Assembly: GCA_018384375.1 (NCBI GenBank)
Contig: JAHAYJ010000032.1
Location: 115,603 to 179,602, forward strand
Reading direction: 5' to 3'
Length of the DNA: 64,000 nt
Source of the DNA: Lachnospiraceae bacterium
GTDB taxonomy: Bacteria; Bacillota; Clostridia; Lachnospirales; Lachnospiraceae
Notes under the pieces: model-generated
Databases searched by the model: none
What the model saw: only the letters and a program-made list of their open reading frames with translations
What the model was told of the DNA's origin: nothing
Made by a program: the position numbers and the translations under genes
Part shown: one piece after another, positions 2,602 through 13,796 of the stretch
How the letters are laid out: the number at the start of each line of letters is the position of its first letter
Numbering within the stretch: the first letter of the stretch is position 1

Positions 2602-4893
2602 ATGCAAGGTAATTCAACGATTTGGTTTGATAAGCCGGCGGAAAGCTGGAATGAAGCTCTTCCAATCGGAAATGGAAGACTGGGAGGGATGATTTATGGG
2701 AAGCCATACACAGAGCTGATTCAGCTCAATGAGGATTCTGTATGGTATGGTGGTCCCATGTGCAGGAACAATCCATCTGCAAAAAAATATCTTTCTCAAA
2801 TACGCAAACTGATTTTTGAAGGCAGGATTGGGGAAGCTCAGGATTTATGTGCATTTGCACTTTCAGGAACACCGGAAGAGCAGCGGCACTATGAACCGCT
2901 TGGGAATTTATACCTGCTCTTTGAAGGAAGAGAGGGAAAAATAACAGATTATGTCAGGAAGCTGAGTATTTCTGACGCAGTGGCACAGGTCAGCTTTAAC
3001 TGGGACGGAGTTTTCTATACCAGACAGATGTTGGCAAGTTACCCTTCCGGGGTGATCGCAGTACATCTGAGTGCGGACCGGCCGGGGAGTGTGTCCTTTC
3101 ATACACAGTTGGCAAGAGGGGAAGCAACCTGGGATTATGCGCCTTATCAGTCACAGACCTTTCGGCATCCTGACTACAATTCCTATGTGGACCGATGTGA
3201 AGCAATCGGTGATGATACAACCGTTATGGAAGGACAGTGCGGCGGAAAGGGAGCAGTTTCTTTCTGTTGTGCACTAAAGGTGATTGCAGACGGAGGGAGT
3301 ACTTATGCAATCGGGAACAGCATTATTGTAAAGAATGCTGACAGTGCACTTGTTTTGTTGGCGGCAGATACTACCTTTCGTGAGAAAGATCCGGAGCAGT
3401 CTGCGCGCCAGAGACTTGACAGAGCTGCCGGTCTTGGATGGGAAGAATTACTTAAGGAGCATAAGCAGGACTACCGGAGCCTCTATGATCGTGTTCAATT
3501 GAGACTTACAGAGCGTACATGTGTGGCTGCGATGCTCCCTACGCCGGAACGTGTGAAGGCATTTCAAAAGGACGAAAGTGATCAAGAGCTTTTGGAGCTT
3601 TTTTTTCAATATGGCAGGTATCTCCTTATTGCAAGCAGCCGTCCCGGTTCTCTTCCGGCAAATCTGCAGGGAATCTGGAACGGGGAAATGAATCCGGTAT
3701 GGGGAAGTAAGTATACCATTAATATTAATGCGCAAATGAACTATTGGCCTGCGGAAACCTGTAATCTTTCGGAATGCCATTTGCCTTTGATTGCTCATAT
3801 TGAACGTATGAAGGAAAACGGAAGAAAAACAGCTCGTGATATGTATGGCTGTAATGGGTTTATGGCCCATCATAATACGGATATCTGGGGAGATACCGCA
3901 CCACAGGATGTATGCCTTAGTTCTACTTATTGGGTTATGGGTGCTGCATGGCTATGTCTGCACATATGGGAACACTACTTATTTACGGAAGATAAAACGT
4001 TTTTAGCGGCAAACTATCCATCCATGAAGGAAGCGGCAGAGTTTATCCTTGATTTTCTGGTGGAGGATGGGGAGTATCTTGTTACCTGTCCGACACTTTC
4101 CCCTGAAAATGAATATTGCCTTCCCGGTGGTGAAAAAGGAGTCATCTGTAAAGGAGCATCCATGGATAATCAGATCATCAGAGAGCTTTTTACAGCTTGC
4201 ATCAAGGCGGGTGATGTGTTGTCAGAGGATGAGAAATTCAGGGAAAGACTTGTAGAAACACAAAAGGGAATAGCACCGATCCGAATCGGGAAACATGGGC
4301 AGATCATGGAATGGAACGAGGATTATGAGGAGACAGATCCCGGACATCGTCATATATCCCAGCTGTTTGCGCTGCATCCGGGGACGCAGATCTCACCGGA
4401 AAAAACACCGGAACTTGCAGAAGCGGCGAAGAGAACTATAGAGCGAAGGCTTTCGCATGGTGGTGGGCATACCGGCTGGAGCAGGGCATGGATCATCAAT
4501 ATGTGGGCTCGTTTGGGTGAGGGTGAAGAAGCACTTAAGAATGTGAAGGAGCTTGTGAAAACTTCTACACTTCCGAATCTGTTTGACAACCATCCGCCGT
4601 TTCAGATCGATGGGAATTTTGGCTGCACAGCAGGAATTGCGGAGATGCTGCTGCAAAGTCATGAAGGAGAAATAGTTTTGCTGCCTGCTCTTCCAAAGGA
4701 ATGGAAAAACGGAAGGGTATCGGGACTCCGTGCAAGGGGTGGCTTTGAGATCAGCCTGGAGTGGAAGGCAGGCATTTTGATAAAGGCAGTAATTACTGCG
4801 GATAAGGATAGTAAAGCTGTGGTCCGGTATGGTCAAAGGAAGATAGCGTTGTCTTTGACTGCACACACAGCGCAGAAACTGGATTTTGCATAG
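2602..4893 (+). CDS. GH95 alpha-L-fucosidase-like glycoside hydrolase, cytoplasmic
   Basis: A 763-aa enzyme of glycoside hydrolase family 95, which inverts alpha-1,2-L-fucosides or related alpha-galactosides (established for the family). Seen here: the N-terminal beta-sandwich with [20 protein letters not shown] and [11 protein letters not shown], then the (alpha/alpha)6 barrel with [20 protein letters not shown], the catalytic Glu region [19 protein letters not shown], and [13 protein letters not shown] with the catalytic Asp region. There is no signal peptide, so it should act on imported oligosaccharides. Start ATG 2602 has GAGGAAACTC just upstream. The exact substrate (fucose or L-galactose) cannot be read from sequence. 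Confidence 0.93.
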
Positions 4894-4901
4894 GAGGAAG
4901 G

Positions 4902-5393
4902 TCAGAGCTTCCTCCTTGACAGATTGGAGTTGTGAAAGTTTGGATCATTGGTGACATCCTCGCCAAGCCAGGCAGGAGGGAGAAAAGCATTCGCCATTTC
5001 TTCGTCCGGAAATTCTACCTCAGCGATGATGAGTGGTGCAAGAGGAGCATCAAAGATGTCCAGTTCGATTTTTAGAGCGGGCATCTTTTCTGATTTCTGA
5101 TAATCGTCTGAAAAGCACAGCTCAGCAATGGGGATAAGATACCTTTTCTTTGAAATAATAATGCCATCTGCTTTTTCTTTCAAATGGAAGTAGGCTTCCT
5201 GGGTAAGGGGAAGATTGTATTCTTCTCTTGCCAGTAATCCTTTTCCCTTGTAGGTCAGATAGTAGTCGTTATCCTGTCTGCGGATGCGGATGACAGGGTT
5301 TGTACAAAGATAGGCCTGTTCAATGCGCAGACATTGAAAGGAGGAAAGATCAGCAGGTAATTGTCTCACTAAAAATTTGCGTTCGATTTCCAT
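4902..5393 (-). CDS. CYTH-domain protein (triphosphate tunnel metalloenzyme family)
   Basis: 163 aa beginning MEIERKFLV, which carries the CYTH signature ExExK at residues 2-6. It continues with the Arg/Lys-rich strands IRIRRQDNDYYLTYKGKG and EEYNLPL, and later KIELDIF and AEVEFP. Family members bind triphosphates in a beta-tunnel and act as inorganic triphosphatases, thiamine triphosphatases or adenylate cyclases. Small bacterial forms like this are usually triphosphatases (inference). Its end converges with the GH95 gene 9 bp away, and a GGAGGAAG/CTTCCTCC inverted repeat spans both ends. A minus-strand promoter TTGCAA-18-TATAAT lies at 5429-5458. Confidence 0.88.
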   Translation of the reverse strand: MEIERKFLVRQLPADLSSFQCLRIEQAYLCTNPVIRIRRQDNDYYLTYKGKGLLAREEYNLPLTQEAYFHLKEKADGIIISKKRYLIPIAELCFSDDYQKSEKMPALKIELDIFDAPLAPLIIAEVEFPDEEMANAFLPPAWLGEDVTNDPNFHNSNLSRRKL

Positions 5394-5428
5394 GAATGAA
5401 ACTCCCTTCGGGTTGTATATCTGTCCTT

Positions 5429-5458
5429 ATTATATGCATTTTCATAAGTTGTTTGCAA
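5429..5458 (-). promoter_or_regulatory. Sigma-A-type promoter for the CYTH gene
   Basis: Minus strand TTGCAA, 18-bp spacer, TATAAT. It lies about 35 bp upstream of the ATG at 5393. Confidence 0.6.
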
Positions 5459-5483
5459 TAGCAGGTGAGTAAGACAATTTTTC

Positions 5484-5512
5484 TTGGAAATCTACTGTAA
5501 AACTGTTAAAAT
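5484..5512 (+). promoter_or_regulatory. Sigma-A-type promoter for the DJ-1 gene
   Basis: TTGGAA, 17-bp spacer, TAAAAT, about 40 bp before the ATG at 5553. Together with the CYTH promoter it makes this a divergent promoter region. Confidence 0.5.
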
Positions 5513-5552
5513 AAGATTGCATGGAAATAACAGCAGAGAGGCGGTATACAGT

Positions 5553-6107
5553 ATGAGTAAGGTGTGTGTATTTTTTGGTACAGGCTTTGAGGAAATTGAA
5601 GCCCTTACCGTAGTGGATATCCTGCGCAGGCAGGGAATTGATACAAAAACGGTTTCTGTGACGGGGGACAGGACTGTGATGGGATCTCACCAGATTCCGG
5701 TTCTCACGGATTTAAGGATTGATGAGATTCATTTTTCAGAAGTGGATGTGATTATTCTTCCCGGCGGAGGCGGAGGAACCAAGGTGCTTGAAGCATGTGA
5801 GCCCCTGATGAAACAGGTAGATGCTTTTGCGGCAGAAGGAAAGACTATCTGTGCAATCTGCGCGGCGCCTTCGATTCTGGGACATCGGGGAATTCTGAAG
5901 GGAAAGAAAGCAATTGCTTATCCGGGATTTGAGGATCAGCTTATCGGAGCAGAGGTGGTTTATGAGCCCGCAGTGAGAGACGGCAACATTATCACAGGCC
6001 GGGGTATGGGCTGCTCTCTTCCTTTTGCACTGCTGGTTCTTGAGCATCTTGCAGGCAGCCAGGCGGCGAAGGATATGGCAGAGAAAATTGTTTATAAAAA
6101 TACTTGA
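5553..6107 (+). CDS. DJ-1/PfpI (ThiJ) family protein
   Basis: 184 aa when started at ATG 5553, which gives the standard MSKVCVFFGTGFEEIEAL start behind AGAGAGGCGG. The ORF-track start at 5484 adds a tail the family lacks. The DJ-1 fold is shown by FEEIEALTVVDILRR, DVIILPGGGGGTKVLE, the nucleophile-elbow cysteine in CAICAAPSILG, and ITGRGMG near the end. Members are protein or glyoxal deglycases, chaperones, or of unknown function. The next gene starts 13 bp downstream, so it is probably the first gene of a small operon with the CBS and GreA-like genes. Confidence 0.9.
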   Translation: MSKVCVFFGTGFEEIEALTVVDILRRQGIDTKTVSVTGDRTVMGSHQIPVLTDLRIDEIHFSEVDVIILPGGGGGTKVLEACEPLMKQVDAFAAEGKTICAICAAPSILGHRGILKGKKAIAYPGFEDQLIGAEVVYEPAVRDGNIITGRGMGCSLPFALLVLEHLAGSQAAKDMAEKIVYKNT

Positions 6108-6120
6108 GAGAAGGATGCAA

Positions 6121-6552
6121 ATGAATATTTTGTTTTTTTTGACGCCCAAAAGTGAAGTGGCATACATATATGATACCGATTCGCTCAGGCAGGCTCTTGA
6201 AAAAATGGAGAATCACAGATATTCCGCAATTCCCATTATCGGGAAGGAGGATGGAAGATATATCGGTACACTGACAGAAGGCGATCTGCTCTGGAATATT
6301 AAGGACTGTGAGGACTTATCGCTAAAAGATGCAGAAGAAATTTCCATTATGGAAGTAAAGCGGAACAGGGATAATGAACCGGTTGATGTGGATGTTAATA
6401 TGGAGGATCTGATCAACAAATCAATGAATCAGAATTTTGTTCCTGTCATTGACAGCGGAAAATGCTTTATCGGTATCATTAAGAGGAAGGATATCATCCA
6501 GTATCTGAGTTCAAAGCTTGTAAAAGCGCAGCAGGCTTTGCAGGACAGATAG
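6121..6552 (+). CDS. CBS-domain pair protein
   Basis: A 143-aa protein made almost entirely of two CBS motifs: SLRQALEKMENHRYSAIPIIG...GTLTEGDLLW and NQNFVPVIDSGKCFIGIIKRKDIIQYL. Such stand-alone pairs (Bateman modules) usually bind adenosine nucleotides and sense energy state. The partner is not visible here. Start ATG 6121 sits 6 nt after GAGAGAAGG. The longer ORF-track start (6025) runs back into the DJ-1 gene in another frame and is rejected. Confidence 0.85.
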   Translation: MNILFFLTPKSEVAYIYDTDSLRQALEKMENHRYSAIPIIGKEDGRYIGTLTEGDLLWNIKDCEDLSLKDAEEISIMEVKRNRDNEPVDVDVNMEDLINKSMNQNFVPVIDSGKCFIGIIKRKDIIQYLSSKLVKAQQALQDR

Positions 6553-6577
6553 GTTAATAGAAGGAAAAGAATTTAAA

Positions 6578-7081
6578 ATGTATAATCAGTTGACAAAAAA
6601 AGATATCGAAGCCATGGAGGCTGAAATCGAAGAGAGAAAGCTGGTCATCCGCCCGCAGCTTTTAGAGGCGGTGAAGGAGGCAAGAGCCCACGGTGATCTG
6701 AGCGAAAACTTTGAGTATTATGCTGCCAAAAGGGAAAAGAATAAAAATGAGAGCCGCATCCGTTTCCTGGAGAGAATGATCAAGACAGCTGAGGTAATCC
6801 CTGACGAGTCTAAGGAGGACGAGGTTGGGATGAACAATACTGTGGAGGTCCAGTTCGAGGAGGACGGTTCCATTGAGAAATATAAAATTGTCACAACCAT
6901 GCGCGGCAATTCCCTGGAGGGCTTGATCAGCGTGGAATCGCCTATCGGAAAGGCACTTATGGGACATAAGGCAGGAGATCGCGTCTATGTACAGGTGAAC
7001 GACAGCTTCGGCTATTATTTATTGATCAAATCAATTGAAAATACAGAAGATGACGGCAGCGATAAGATAAGAAGCTTTTAG
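6578..7081 (+). CDS. greA: GreA/GreB-family transcription elongation factor
   Basis: 167 aa. The N-terminal coiled coil (about residues 1-75) carries ARAHGDLSENFEYYAAKREK, the acidic Gre tip that enters the RNA polymerase secondary channel and stimulates transcript cleavage. The C-terminal half is the FKBP-like Gre domain, ending with SPIGKALMGHKAGDRVYVQV. It is slightly longer than typical GreA (about 158 aa) and may be one of several Gre paralogues in the genome. It follows the CBS gene by 25 bp on the same strand. Confidence 0.92.
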   Translation: MYNQLTKKDIEAMEAEIEERKLVIRPQLLEAVKEARAHGDLSENFEYYAAKREKNKNESRIRFLERMIKTAEVIPDESKEDEVGMNNTVEVQFEEDGSIEKYKIVTTMRGNSLEGLISVESPIGKALMGHKAGDRVYVQVNDSFGYYLLIKSIENTEDDGSDKIRSF

Positions 7082-10285: not shown

Positions 10286-10756
10286 ATGGGAATGAGTGAG
10301 ACGATTGTGTCCATGGAGGGCATATGTAAAAGCTTTCCGGGTGTAAAAGCACTGGATCATGTGAAGTTTGAACTGAAATCAGGTGAGGTAGCTCTCCTGG
10401 GGGAGAACGGTGCAGGGAAAAGTACGCTGATGAAGATCCTGAGCGGCGTTTATACCAGAGATGAAGGCAGGATGCAGATTTTCGGGAAAGAATACGGAAA
10501 TCTGACTCCGAAGCTTGCACAGGAAGTAGGAGTGGCAATTATCCATCAGGAACTGAATATGTGTAAGCACTTATCAGTAGCTGAAAATATTTTCCTGGGA
10601 AGAGAAAAGAAAAAAGGAATTGTGCTGGCAGGCGGAGAGATGGAAGCTGAGTCACAGCAGATACTGGATGAACTGAAAATTGATCTGGATCCCAAACAGG
10701 TAGTAGGGGAATTACCGGTATCCAAACAACAGATCAGAACTTTTGAAACTAAATAA
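10286..10756 (+). pseudogene. Truncated sugar ABC importer ATPase (MglA/RbsA type), 5' fragment
   Basis: 156 aa matching only the first third of MglA/RbsA-type double ATPases, which are normally about 500 aa. It has SFPGVKALDHVKFELKSGEVALLGENGAGKSTLM with an intact Walker A, the Q-loop stretch IIHQELNMCKHLSVAENIFLGRE, and VGELPVSKQQ just before where the ABC signature would be. It then departs into IRTFETK and stops. The bases at the break are the coding frame of a sensor kinase (next feature). A deletion has therefore joined this gene's front to the kinase's back, removing the rest of the ATPase and whatever lay between. Confidence 0.88.
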
Positions 10757-11450
10757 GCGACAGGCACAGTATCTTGCATTGCAAAATTAGATCAATCCTC
10801 ATTTCCTGTACAATACACTGGAGAGCATCAGAAGTGAAGTGCTGATTGCAGGACTGACAAGCGTATCGGATATGACAGAAGCCCTGGCAAGCTTTTTTCG
10901 CTATACCATCAGTAAGGTAGAAAACCTGGTGTCGGTGGAGGAGGAGCTTCAGAATTGTGAAACCTACTTTAAGATTCAGCAATACCGGTTTGGGGAGCGG
11001 CTGCAGCTGACCATAGAATGTGATAATGAGGAACGGGAAGAAATCTATTGCTGCAGACTGCCTAAGCTCACCATGCAGCCGATTCTGGAGAACAGTATCA
11101 TTCATGGCACGGAATGCAAGGTGGGAACCGGGCACCTCAAAATTCATCTGGAAAGAACAGGAAGCAGACTCTTGATCCGAATTTCAGATGACGGGGTTGG
11201 AATTGATGCCAAAACCCTTGCAGACATGAATGAACGCCTGGAAAAGAGTGCACAGGCGATGTCGAGCCAGGAATCTGAGACAAAGGGAGGAATCGCGCTG
11301 GTCAACGTAAATAATCGTATCCATCTTCTGTTTGGTGAGGAGTATGGTCTGCATGTCTTTTCCATGCCCGGAATCGGAACCGATGTGGAAATTACGCTGC
11401 CGGCCATCACCAGTGACAGAGAAATTCCCAATAAGGAAGCACTTAGTTAA
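10737..11450 (+). pseudogene. YesM/LytS-type sensor histidine kinase, C-terminal remnant with an internal amber codon
   Basis: The frame reads ELLKLNKRQAQYLALQN-stop-INPHFLYNTLESIRSE. INPHFLYNTL is the phospho-acceptor block of the His_kinase (PF06580) family, where the position before it is normally Gln. The stop is TAG at 10788-10790, one base from CAG. Downstream are the ATPase motifs QPILENSIIHG, ISDDGVGID and GGIALVNVNNRI. The sensor and membrane parts are missing, lost in the deletion that fused this to the ABC fragment. The ORF-track start (GTG 10839) is only the first start-like codon after the stop. The protein is almost certainly non-functional. Confidence 0.88.
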
Positions 11451-11461
11451 GGACGTGGGCT

Positions 11462-12985
11462 ATGAGAGAAGAAATGTTGCGCATGGAGCGTGTAACCTAC
11501 AAGAGCCAGGGGGAAACCGGCCTTTACAATTTCAGCATGACGATTTGGGCAGGAGAGATTTTAGGACTCATTCCCGTTAATAATTATGGGCTGGAAACGC
11601 TTCTCCTGCTGCTGAAGCAGAATCTGCCTCTCCATTATGGATATGTTTATTACCATGAAAAGCTGATCAATGATTGGAAAAAACCGGGGAGCGGGATGAA
11701 CCGGATCAGCATAATTCAAAATAAAAGCTGTCTTGCCAAGGATTTGACTGTTGCAGACAATATTTTTGTGCTGCGCCCCGGATTTAAAAAGTGGTTTATG
11801 CAGCCTGAGGTATTAAAAAAGCAGCTGATTCCGTTCATGGAGGACATCGGTATTACAATCAGTGCCGATGCCTATGTAGACGAACTGACGACGTTTGAAA
11901 AATTTGTGGTAGAGCTTTTGAAGGCAGTGGTTGCCGGAAGCAGGCTGATTGTTCTTGAAAATATCGGAACCTTTATCAGTGATGATGAGCTTGTAAAGCT
12001 GCATGAAATTCTGCGGCATTATGCGCAGGAAGGAATATCCTTTCTGTATATTACCTCTCATCACGAGGAGGCAAGGCAGTTCTGTGACAGAACCGCCTTT
12101 ATGATGAATGGACAGATTACCAAATACTTTGAAGTGGGAGATCGGACACCGGATACCCTGTTTCTGCCCGGTGTAGCGGATTATGACAGATGGGTCAGGC
12201 AGCAGTTTGAAGTTCAGGAGGAGGAAGGCAAAAGCGGAGCTGCATTTGAGATTAAGTCACTGTATCACGGAAATCTGCGCAACTTTAGTCTGCGGGTGGA
12301 AGCAGGGGAATGCCTGGTGATACAGGATCTGGATAACGGGGCTCTGAAGGATTTGTTCTCGCTTCTGGAAGGCGAAACGCAAAGGAGCGGGCAATTGCTG
12401 ATTGACGGTGAAGCAGTTCGACCGGGAAAGGACAGAAGACTTGCGGTAATACAGGAGCTGCCGACGGAAACAATGATCTTCCACAATATGAGCTATCTGG
12501 ACAATCTGTGCTTTAACATGGATCATCGTTTTAAGAGAATCTGGTTTGCAAAGGGAGTGAAAAAGAGTGTTGCCGGGGAATACGGAGCACTTTTGGGGGA
12601 GGATGTCTTCTATCAGAAGGTGGAGGATCTTACCCAGCAGCAGAAATATGACCTGGTCTACACGAGGATCCTTCTTCAAAACCCAAGAATCGTGTTTTGC
12701 GTGCAACCCTTTAAGCAGGCAGAGGTATCCATCAGAAGCCATATCTGGGAGCTTTTGGAACGTTTCCTGAAAAAGGGTATTGCGGTAGTGATCCTGGCGG
12801 TGAATTTGGCAGACTCACTGGCGCTGGCCGACAGACTGGTCAGGGTTAAGTATGGAAGCGTACAGGAAATATATAATAAAGAGGATTTTATCAAGCTGCC
12901 GGTTGATACACCATGGCTGTACCTATATAAGGAAAAATATGCTTTGGAAATGGAAAAACAAAGAGAAAAGGCGAAGGAGAAATAG
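11462..12985 (+). CDS. Double ABC-fold protein lacking Walker motifs (pseudo-ATPase), sugar-sensing locus
   Basis: 507 aa with the length and layout of MglA/RbsA tandem ATPases, but with its nucleotide motifs erased. In half 1 the Walker A position reads GLIPVNNYGLETL instead of GENGAGKSTL, the signature region is ELTTFEKFVVELLKAV, and Walker B reads LIVLENI where LILDEP is expected. The switch His of YITSHHEEA is kept. Half 2 has QDLDNGALKDL for Walker A and IVFCVQPF for Walker B. It is intact, with no stops, and starts 11 bp after the kinase remnant. Seen: a conserved fold without catalytic residues. Inferred: a regulatory partner of the lost two-component/ABC system. Confidence 0.8.
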   Translation: MREEMLRMERVTYKSQGETGLYNFSMTIWAGEILGLIPVNNYGLETLLLLLKQNLPLHYGYVYYHEKLINDWKKPGSGMNRISIIQNKSCLAKDLTVADNIFVLRPGFKKWFMQPEVLKKQLIPFMEDIGITISADAYVDELTTFEKFVVELLKAVVAGSRLIVLENIGTFISDDELVKLHEILRHYAQEGISFLYITSHHEEARQFCDRTAFMMNGQITKYFEVGDRTPDTLFLPGVADYDRWVRQQFEVQEEEGKSGAAFEIKSLYHGNLRNFSLRVEAGECLVIQDLDNGALKDLFSLLEGETQRSGQLLIDGEAVRPGKDRRLAVIQELPTETMIFHNMSYLDNLCFNMDHRFKRIWFAKGVKKSVAGEYGALLGEDVFYQKVEDLTQQQKYDLVYTRILLQNPRIVFCVQPFKQAEVSIRSHIWELLERFLKKGIAVVILAVNLADSLALADRLVRVKYGSVQEIYNKEDFIKLPVDTPWLYLYKEKYALEMEKQREKAKEK

Positions 12986-12988
12986 AAA

Positions 12989-13796
12989 ATGAAACTTGGA
13001 GCATTGGAAGCAGGCGGAACAAAGATGGTATGTGCAATCGGAGATGAGACCGGAAAAATCTATGATCAGGTATCTATCCCTACTGAGACACCGGATGTTA
13101 CCATTCCGAAGCTGATAGAATATTTTGAGAAAAATACGGTAGATGCCCTTGGAATTGCAAGCTTTGGCCCTGTTGAGCTTGACCCGAAGGCACCGAATTA
13201 CGGATATATCACGACGACAACCAAGGTGGCGTGGAGAAATTTTGATATGGCGGGAAGCTTTGCAAGAGCGTTAAAGTGTCCCATCGGATTTGACACGGAT
13301 GTAAATGGCTCGGTTCTGGGCGAAGTGACCTTTGGACAGGCGAGAGGAAAGAGCTGTGTCATTTATCTAACCATTGGAACTGGTGTGGGGGCAGGAATTT
13401 ATATTGAAGATAAGCTGCTGCATGGCATGCTTCATCCGGAAGCGGGGCATGTGCTGATCGAGAAGAGGAACGGGGATGCCTATGCCGGAAAATGTCCTTA
13501 TCACAGAAATTGCCTGGAGGGTCTGGCAGTTGGAAGCAGATTATATAGCCCAGGCACTTACCGGCTATGTACTTACCCTGTCGCCGGAGATGATCATTTT
13601 AGGCGGCGGCGTCATGCATCAGAAACAGCTCTTCCCACTCATCAGGGCAAAGGTGACAGAATTTCTGGGAGGATACATACAGGCGGAAGAACTTCGGGAT
13701 ATGGATCACTACATCGTACCGGCAAGCCTGCATGATGATCAGGGGATTATGGGATGTCTGGAGCTTGCAAGAAGAGCATTACAGAAGAGACAGTAA
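12989..13796 (+). pseudogene. ROK-family fructokinase, frameshifted by an internal deletion
   Basis: The first frame (12989-13735) gives MKLGALEAGGTKMVCAIGDE, ASFGPVEL, GTGVGAGIYIE, HPEAGHVLIE and the zinc-site motif CPYHRNCLEGLA of ScrK/GmuE-type fructokinases. The correct C-terminus continues in another frame from about 13525: VWQLEADYIAQALTGYVLTLSPEMIILGGGVMHQKQLFPLI, ending at 13796. About 20-25 residues expected between CLEGLA and VWQLE are missing. At the join, GTCTGGCA can be read both as the end of GLA and as the start of VWQ, so a deletion between two such repeats explains the shift. It would phosphorylate fructose if intact. Confidence 0.88.

Follow-up and report, generated by a model that had tools for sequence, protein, structure and literature searches.

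The locus and its decay

The window analysed here is a stretch of 64,000 nucleotides from a Lachnospiraceae bacterium. At positions 11462-12985 of its + strand lies one open reading frame of 507 codons with the layout of MglA and RbsA, which starts 11 nt past the stop codon of a YesM-family kinase remnant. Its product, a degenerate tandem ABC protein (pseudo-ATPase) of 507 aa with an intact frame, is referred to here as pABC.

When the locus (G000:C97) was compared with the related genomes G034 and G018, a complete version was found in both, consisting of an intact ATPase, a permease, a double binding protein of about 600 aa, an AraC-type response regulator, the kinase and pABC. Relative to these genomes, about 6.0 kb (6012 bp versus G018 and 6038 bp versus G034) is missing from the window at a junction between 10734 and 10735, and with it the remainder of the ATPase, the permease, the tandem binding protein (SBP), the response regulator and the kinase N-terminus. 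The kinase remains and the broken state of the neighbours were thus described correctly in the original prediction. The "real ABC ATPase" which it placed beside them turned out to be the N-terminal ~150 codons of an RbsA/MglA-type importer ATPase (10286-10734, + strand; Walker A intact), joined at codon ~150 to the kinase's C-terminal half, just ahead of the H-box. The kinase remnant itself (10735-11450, + strand) comprises the part from the H-box onward and carries a nonsense TAG (10788-10790) just ahead of the H-box. Near 13520, a 71-nt deletion breaks the ROK-family sugar kinase gene downstream of pABC (12989-13796, + strand).

An assembly artefact may lie behind the junction, but the nonsense codon and the separate 71-nt deletion nearby favour real decay. 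Judged from the sequence, it is the ~6-kb deletion and the nonsense codon that killed the system in the window and left pABC as an orphan. As the kinase is dead in this genome, the window copy of pABC cannot now signal through it. When the genome was searched with the kinase profile, the broken copy was the only short kinase among the matches listed, and the next listed match was a frame of 486 aa (240 bits). Few non-synonymous differences were found in the operon remnants, which suggests a recent loss; that the frame of this single pABC copy is still open says little about selection since then.

Sugar-binding proteins of about 600 aa were also seen at L032 (7650-9458; two Peripla_BP_4 domains by Pfam), L033, L105, L108, L110 and L121.

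Degenerate motifs and predicted fold of pABC

In the Pfam search, pABC was matched by ABC_tran alone (4.3e-9). The best NCBIfam matches were the CUT2 ATPases XylG, AraG, RbsA and MglA (E-values 1e-25 to 1e-32), with scores far under the cut-offs that assign a protein to the CUT2 importer ATPases. The tandem layout and length proposed for the protein were borne out, as pABC has the two fused ABC nucleotide-binding domains (NBDs) and the ~500 aa of a CUT2 ATPase. The protein has no working catalytic site, which would comprise Walker A, Walker B DE, the H-switch and LSGG. As CUT2 importer ATPases top the NCBIfam matches, annotation that relies on homology alone looks likely to take pABC genes for ordinary ATPases of sugar transport.

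When pABC was aligned with importer ATPases, Walker A of the first half (11573-11599, + strand) was found to read PVNNYGLET for GENGAGKST and Walker B of the first half (11954-11965, + strand) LENI for MDEP, and the H-switch is gone. In NBD2, the Walker A position holds DLDNGALKD for GLMGAGRTE, the signature position LTQQQK for LSGGNQ and the Walker B position CVQPF for FDEPT, with DE absent. Both nucleotide sites are thus erased, as originally proposed.

Two other segments are retained. The first, DLTVADNIFVLR (11741-11776, + strand), lies past the Q-loop and contains N100, which is invariant in the 34-row alignment A2; we propose it as the face that docks on the permease. The second, MSYLDNLC (12488-12511, + strand), lies in the second half and contains N348, invariant in the same alignment. 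In MalK-type importers, the segment past the Q-loop lies at the permease interface, and in pABC it is kept in both halves while the catalytic residues are gone. By itself this would be a weak sign of permease docking, since conservation extends to other structural residues, and the segment may have been retained for folding instead.

The AlphaFold model of pABC, made with the 34-row alignment, contains two complete NBDs (mean pLDDT 82.7, pTM 0.68), and among the solved structures nearest to it are those of DppD and OppD, both tandem importer ATPases (TM about 0.70). When solved structures were searched by the pABC sequence, no CUT2 ATPase was among the matches listed.

A conserved clade of dead ATPases

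Homologues of pABC belong to a gene cassette in which a response regulator and a YesM-family kinase are followed by pABC as the last gene. In profile searches of the order and the phylum, cassette members scored at least 450 bits and all others at most 335 bits. All 11 new matches of at least 450 bits outside the first set in the ABC-first search belong to a regulator-kinase-ABC cassette, and two lower-scoring control matches are plain importers. The original prediction asked whether homologues recur next to YesM kinases and MglA-type importers; they clearly do, in many genera of at least seven bacterial families, some of them outside the class of the window.

Three same-genus orthologues (G034, G018 and G011; 73, 67 and 59 % identity) have intact frames and a Walker A that is likewise erased (PVNN, PVNH, PVNY). 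Pairwise dN/dS was about 0.05-0.12 for the closer cassette pairs with measurable dS, and changes were mostly synonymous in the pair containing the window pABC (pN 0.15 versus pS 0.74). When a tree was drawn for 87 cassette ABCs and 79 importer ATPases, two groups were observed with 0 misplaced tips and a support of 1.0. pABC therefore does not group with the importer ATPases, and its identity to those compared is ~22 % at most. The frame could be taken for a decayed importer ATPase not yet hit by a stop codon, as all surrounding genes are broken in this genome. However, the deep separate clade, the low dN/dS and the open frames of orthologues whose motifs are erased likewise led us to reject this reading for the family, and it is almost certainly wrong. 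Of the two options first offered for the intact frame, selection for a non-enzymatic role and recent decay, each holds in part: the family is conserved in a non-catalytic form, and the rest of this operon has recently decayed.

Among 52 pABC members, Walker B1 DE and LSGG were found in 0 and Walker A1 in 6, with these motifs present in 47/47 importers. In the larger set, a first-half P-loop is kept in 12/87 cassette ABCs, 11 of which have no complete site. Close homologues are all degenerate, so that intact Walker motifs in the same position, which would have marked the window copy as simply decayed, were not found there; more distant homologues retain at most a remnant P-loop, with the exception of L249, the only one of the 87 with a complete first-half ATP site. 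The absence of LSGG in 86/87 members, the restriction of Walker B1 DE to 4/87 and the intact ATPase already present at most loci make it very improbable that pABC is an active but divergent ATPase which powers its own transporter via non-canonical residues, a reading to which the 12 retained P-loops, the full site in L249 and a few loci (L072, L135) where pABC is the sole ATPase near a permease lend some support. On sequence evidence, the pABC proteins demonstrably form a conserved clade of their own, made up of CUT2-type tandem ABC ATPases that are catalytically dead and under purifying selection.

The protein at L249 (6072-7523; G194:C26) has GENGAGKST, DE and LSGGN all present and looks fully catalytic. 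Its complete site is possibly the ancestral state or possibly a recent replacement. Given this site and the P-loops, nucleotide binding may matter in some pABC members.

Cassettes and sensor-less kinases

The pABC gene lies directly 3' of the YesM-family kinase gene, with a gap of at most 20 nt in 74/86 cassettes, 22 of which show a 4-nt overlap. An AraC-type response regulator is present in 83/86 cassettes. A binding protein, a permease and a second ABC ATPase were all found within the fetched stretch in 64/86, and in seven cassettes the fetched stretch has no importer gene. The neighbouring permeases are of the CUT2 type (PF02653).

A kinase-first search was performed with a profile of the kinase sequence alone, without the ABC protein. 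Scores were >270 bits for short kinases (about 255 to 390 aa) and mostly <265 for the canonical YesM kinases of ~600 aa. A tandem ABC gene, the dead ATPase, was located directly 3' of 35 of the 38 previously unseen short kinases, and no ABC gene directly 3' of any of the 20 full-length YesM kinases. Pfam detected no sensor domain in the short kinases, and no extracytoplasmic sensor domain is present. They contain either a pair of adjacent TM helices joined by a tiny loop or no TM helix at all. Their H-box is intact in 51/51. This arrangement, seen in many gut-type Clostridia, suggests that the dead motor acts as the sensor of a sensor-less kinase.

The same data bear on the possibility that the non-catalytic pABC regulates the importer, competing with the working ATPase and damping transport, while kinase and regulator are merely co-transcribed. 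Many cassettes do contain a single permease gene, and the co-divergence of pABC with the permease (see below) would fit. However, pABC is coupled to the kinase gene and not to the importer genes, and it accompanies sensor-less kinases and is absent behind the 20 full-length ones. We regard such a damping role as quite unlikely.

An SBP gene lies directly 3' of about half of the 20 long YesM kinases. SBP genes directly downstream of full-length YesM kinases beside CUT2 operons were recorded at L258, L260, L262, L264, L267, L269-L272 and L274.

Co-divergence and dedicated permeases

A partial mirror-tree analysis was carried out on 36 cassettes, with each distance pair controlled for the other components. 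The partial r was 0.59 for pABC and permease (bootstrap 0.44 to 0.77; 0/2000 permutations), 0.29 for pABC and kinase, -0.06 for regulator and permease and -0.08 for kinase and permease, the last pair being uncorrelated once pABC is accounted for; rate differences and saturation can distort such partial correlations of distances. When rank correlations were used or the data were restricted to closer pairs, the pABC-permease value still lay well above the kinase-permease value. The same was observed in 11 cassettes with the regulator gene nearer the importer, and gene order is thus not the explanation.

Five cassettes (L072, L223, L233, L241 and L248) have a CUT2 permease gene coupled directly to the 3' side of pABC. 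This dedicated permease shares 26 to 34 % identity with the permease of the separate importer in the three cassettes compared. At L072 (5432-7790) and L135 (5992-9518), a permease adjoins pABC and no intact CUT2 ATPase was found in the fetched stretch; these two permeases are candidate non-transporting receptors.

The main rival to a permease-bound pABC is a cytosolic sensor, in which pABC has no contact with the permease and modulates the kinase through a ligand from the cytosol (ATP/ADP or a sugar phosphate) bound by its degenerate NBDs. It would account for the NBD fold, for the tight coupling of the pABC gene to the kinase gene and for the first-half P-loop in 12/87 members. Most members have lost that loop, however, and both the strong pABC-permease co-divergence, independent of kinase and response regulator, and the existence of dedicated permeases speak against it. 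We consider this sensor unlikely, and the importer-damping subunit less likely still.

Proposed mechanism

We judge it rather probable that pABC is a non-hydrolysing adaptor which docks on a CUT2 permease and signals to a kinase without a sensor of its own, in a conserved cassette. Binding to the permease and reporting to the kinase, the role first offered in the original prediction, would agree with the co-divergence, the dedicated permeases and the sensor-less kinases. The docking, the direction of the signal and the regulated target are what we infer as follows. pABC would keep the NBD fold and the permease-facing segment, and would dock without ATP hydrolysis on a CUT2 permease that is either shared with the working ATPase or dedicated. 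It would then communicate to the kinase's cytoplasmic part whether the permease or binding protein is sugar-loaded or transporting. The AraC-type regulator, with the importer operon as its probable target, would be phosphorylated by the kinase. As to the broader proposal, that a dead importer ATPase and a sugar permease form a non-transporting receptor which serves a whole clade of YesM-family kinases without sensors, across Clostridia, as their sensory input, we find the case evenly balanced.

Comparison with known systems

pABC resembles the CUT2 importer ATPases (RbsA/MglA/XylG/AraG) in its tandem two-NBD layout, length and fold. It differs from them in its erased catalytic motifs and separate clade, and in being encoded with a kinase and not as the motor of an importer.

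In the SBP-linked three-component systems XylFII-LytS-YesN and CuaD-CuaS-CuaR (PMC10384115), a YesM/LytS-type kinase and a YesN/AraC regulator also receive input from a transporter-like protein, and the genes likewise adjoin a sugar importer (PMC10384115). Such a kinase and regulator are present in the relatives of the window; in the window itself the kinase is broken and the regulator lost. In the SBP-linked systems, the partner is a binding protein outside the cell that acts on an extracytoplasmic domain of the kinase (PMC10384115), whereas the pABC cassette has a cytoplasmic pseudo-ATPase as the partner, and its kinases have no extracytoplasmic sensor domain for an SBP to contact.

In the flux-sensing BceAB-BceS modules, the kinase has no dedicated sensing domain and signalling was proposed to depend on the state of the ABC transporter (PMC10314905). 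A sensor-domain-less kinase is thus common to Bce modules and pABC cassettes. Bce modules use an active exporter-type ATPase and the permease BceB (PMC10314905), whereas the pABC cassette has a dead importer-type ATPase, encoded by a gene of its own and adjacent to an intact second ATPase, and CUT2-type permeases in place of a BceA/BceB-type exporter. Another feature of Bce modules is a physical complex of transporter and kinase; the observation in pABC cassettes that bears on it, indirectly, is the co-divergence. The pABC cassette therefore lacks one defining feature of each of the two kinds of system.

In 5.39 million open-access papers, a set that omits most of the subscription literature and all preprints, no description of the pseudo-ATPase cassette was found. 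Sensor-less kinases pose the question of their input, and monophyletic dead ABC ATPases genetically fixed to them offer a concrete and testable answer. If true, ABC ATPases would have been repurposed as signalling adaptors in sugar-competing bacteria, and this would be a third way to wire sugar import to gene control.

Two further observations were made around the cassettes. At L127, an 816-aa protein (4213-6663) with cupin/AraC HTH and GH39 glycosidase domains adjoins the cassette. In addition, L039 contains two CheW-like ORFs (268-822 and 5013-5567) of 184 aa each, identical in their first 75 residues and each followed by a receptor-like ORF.
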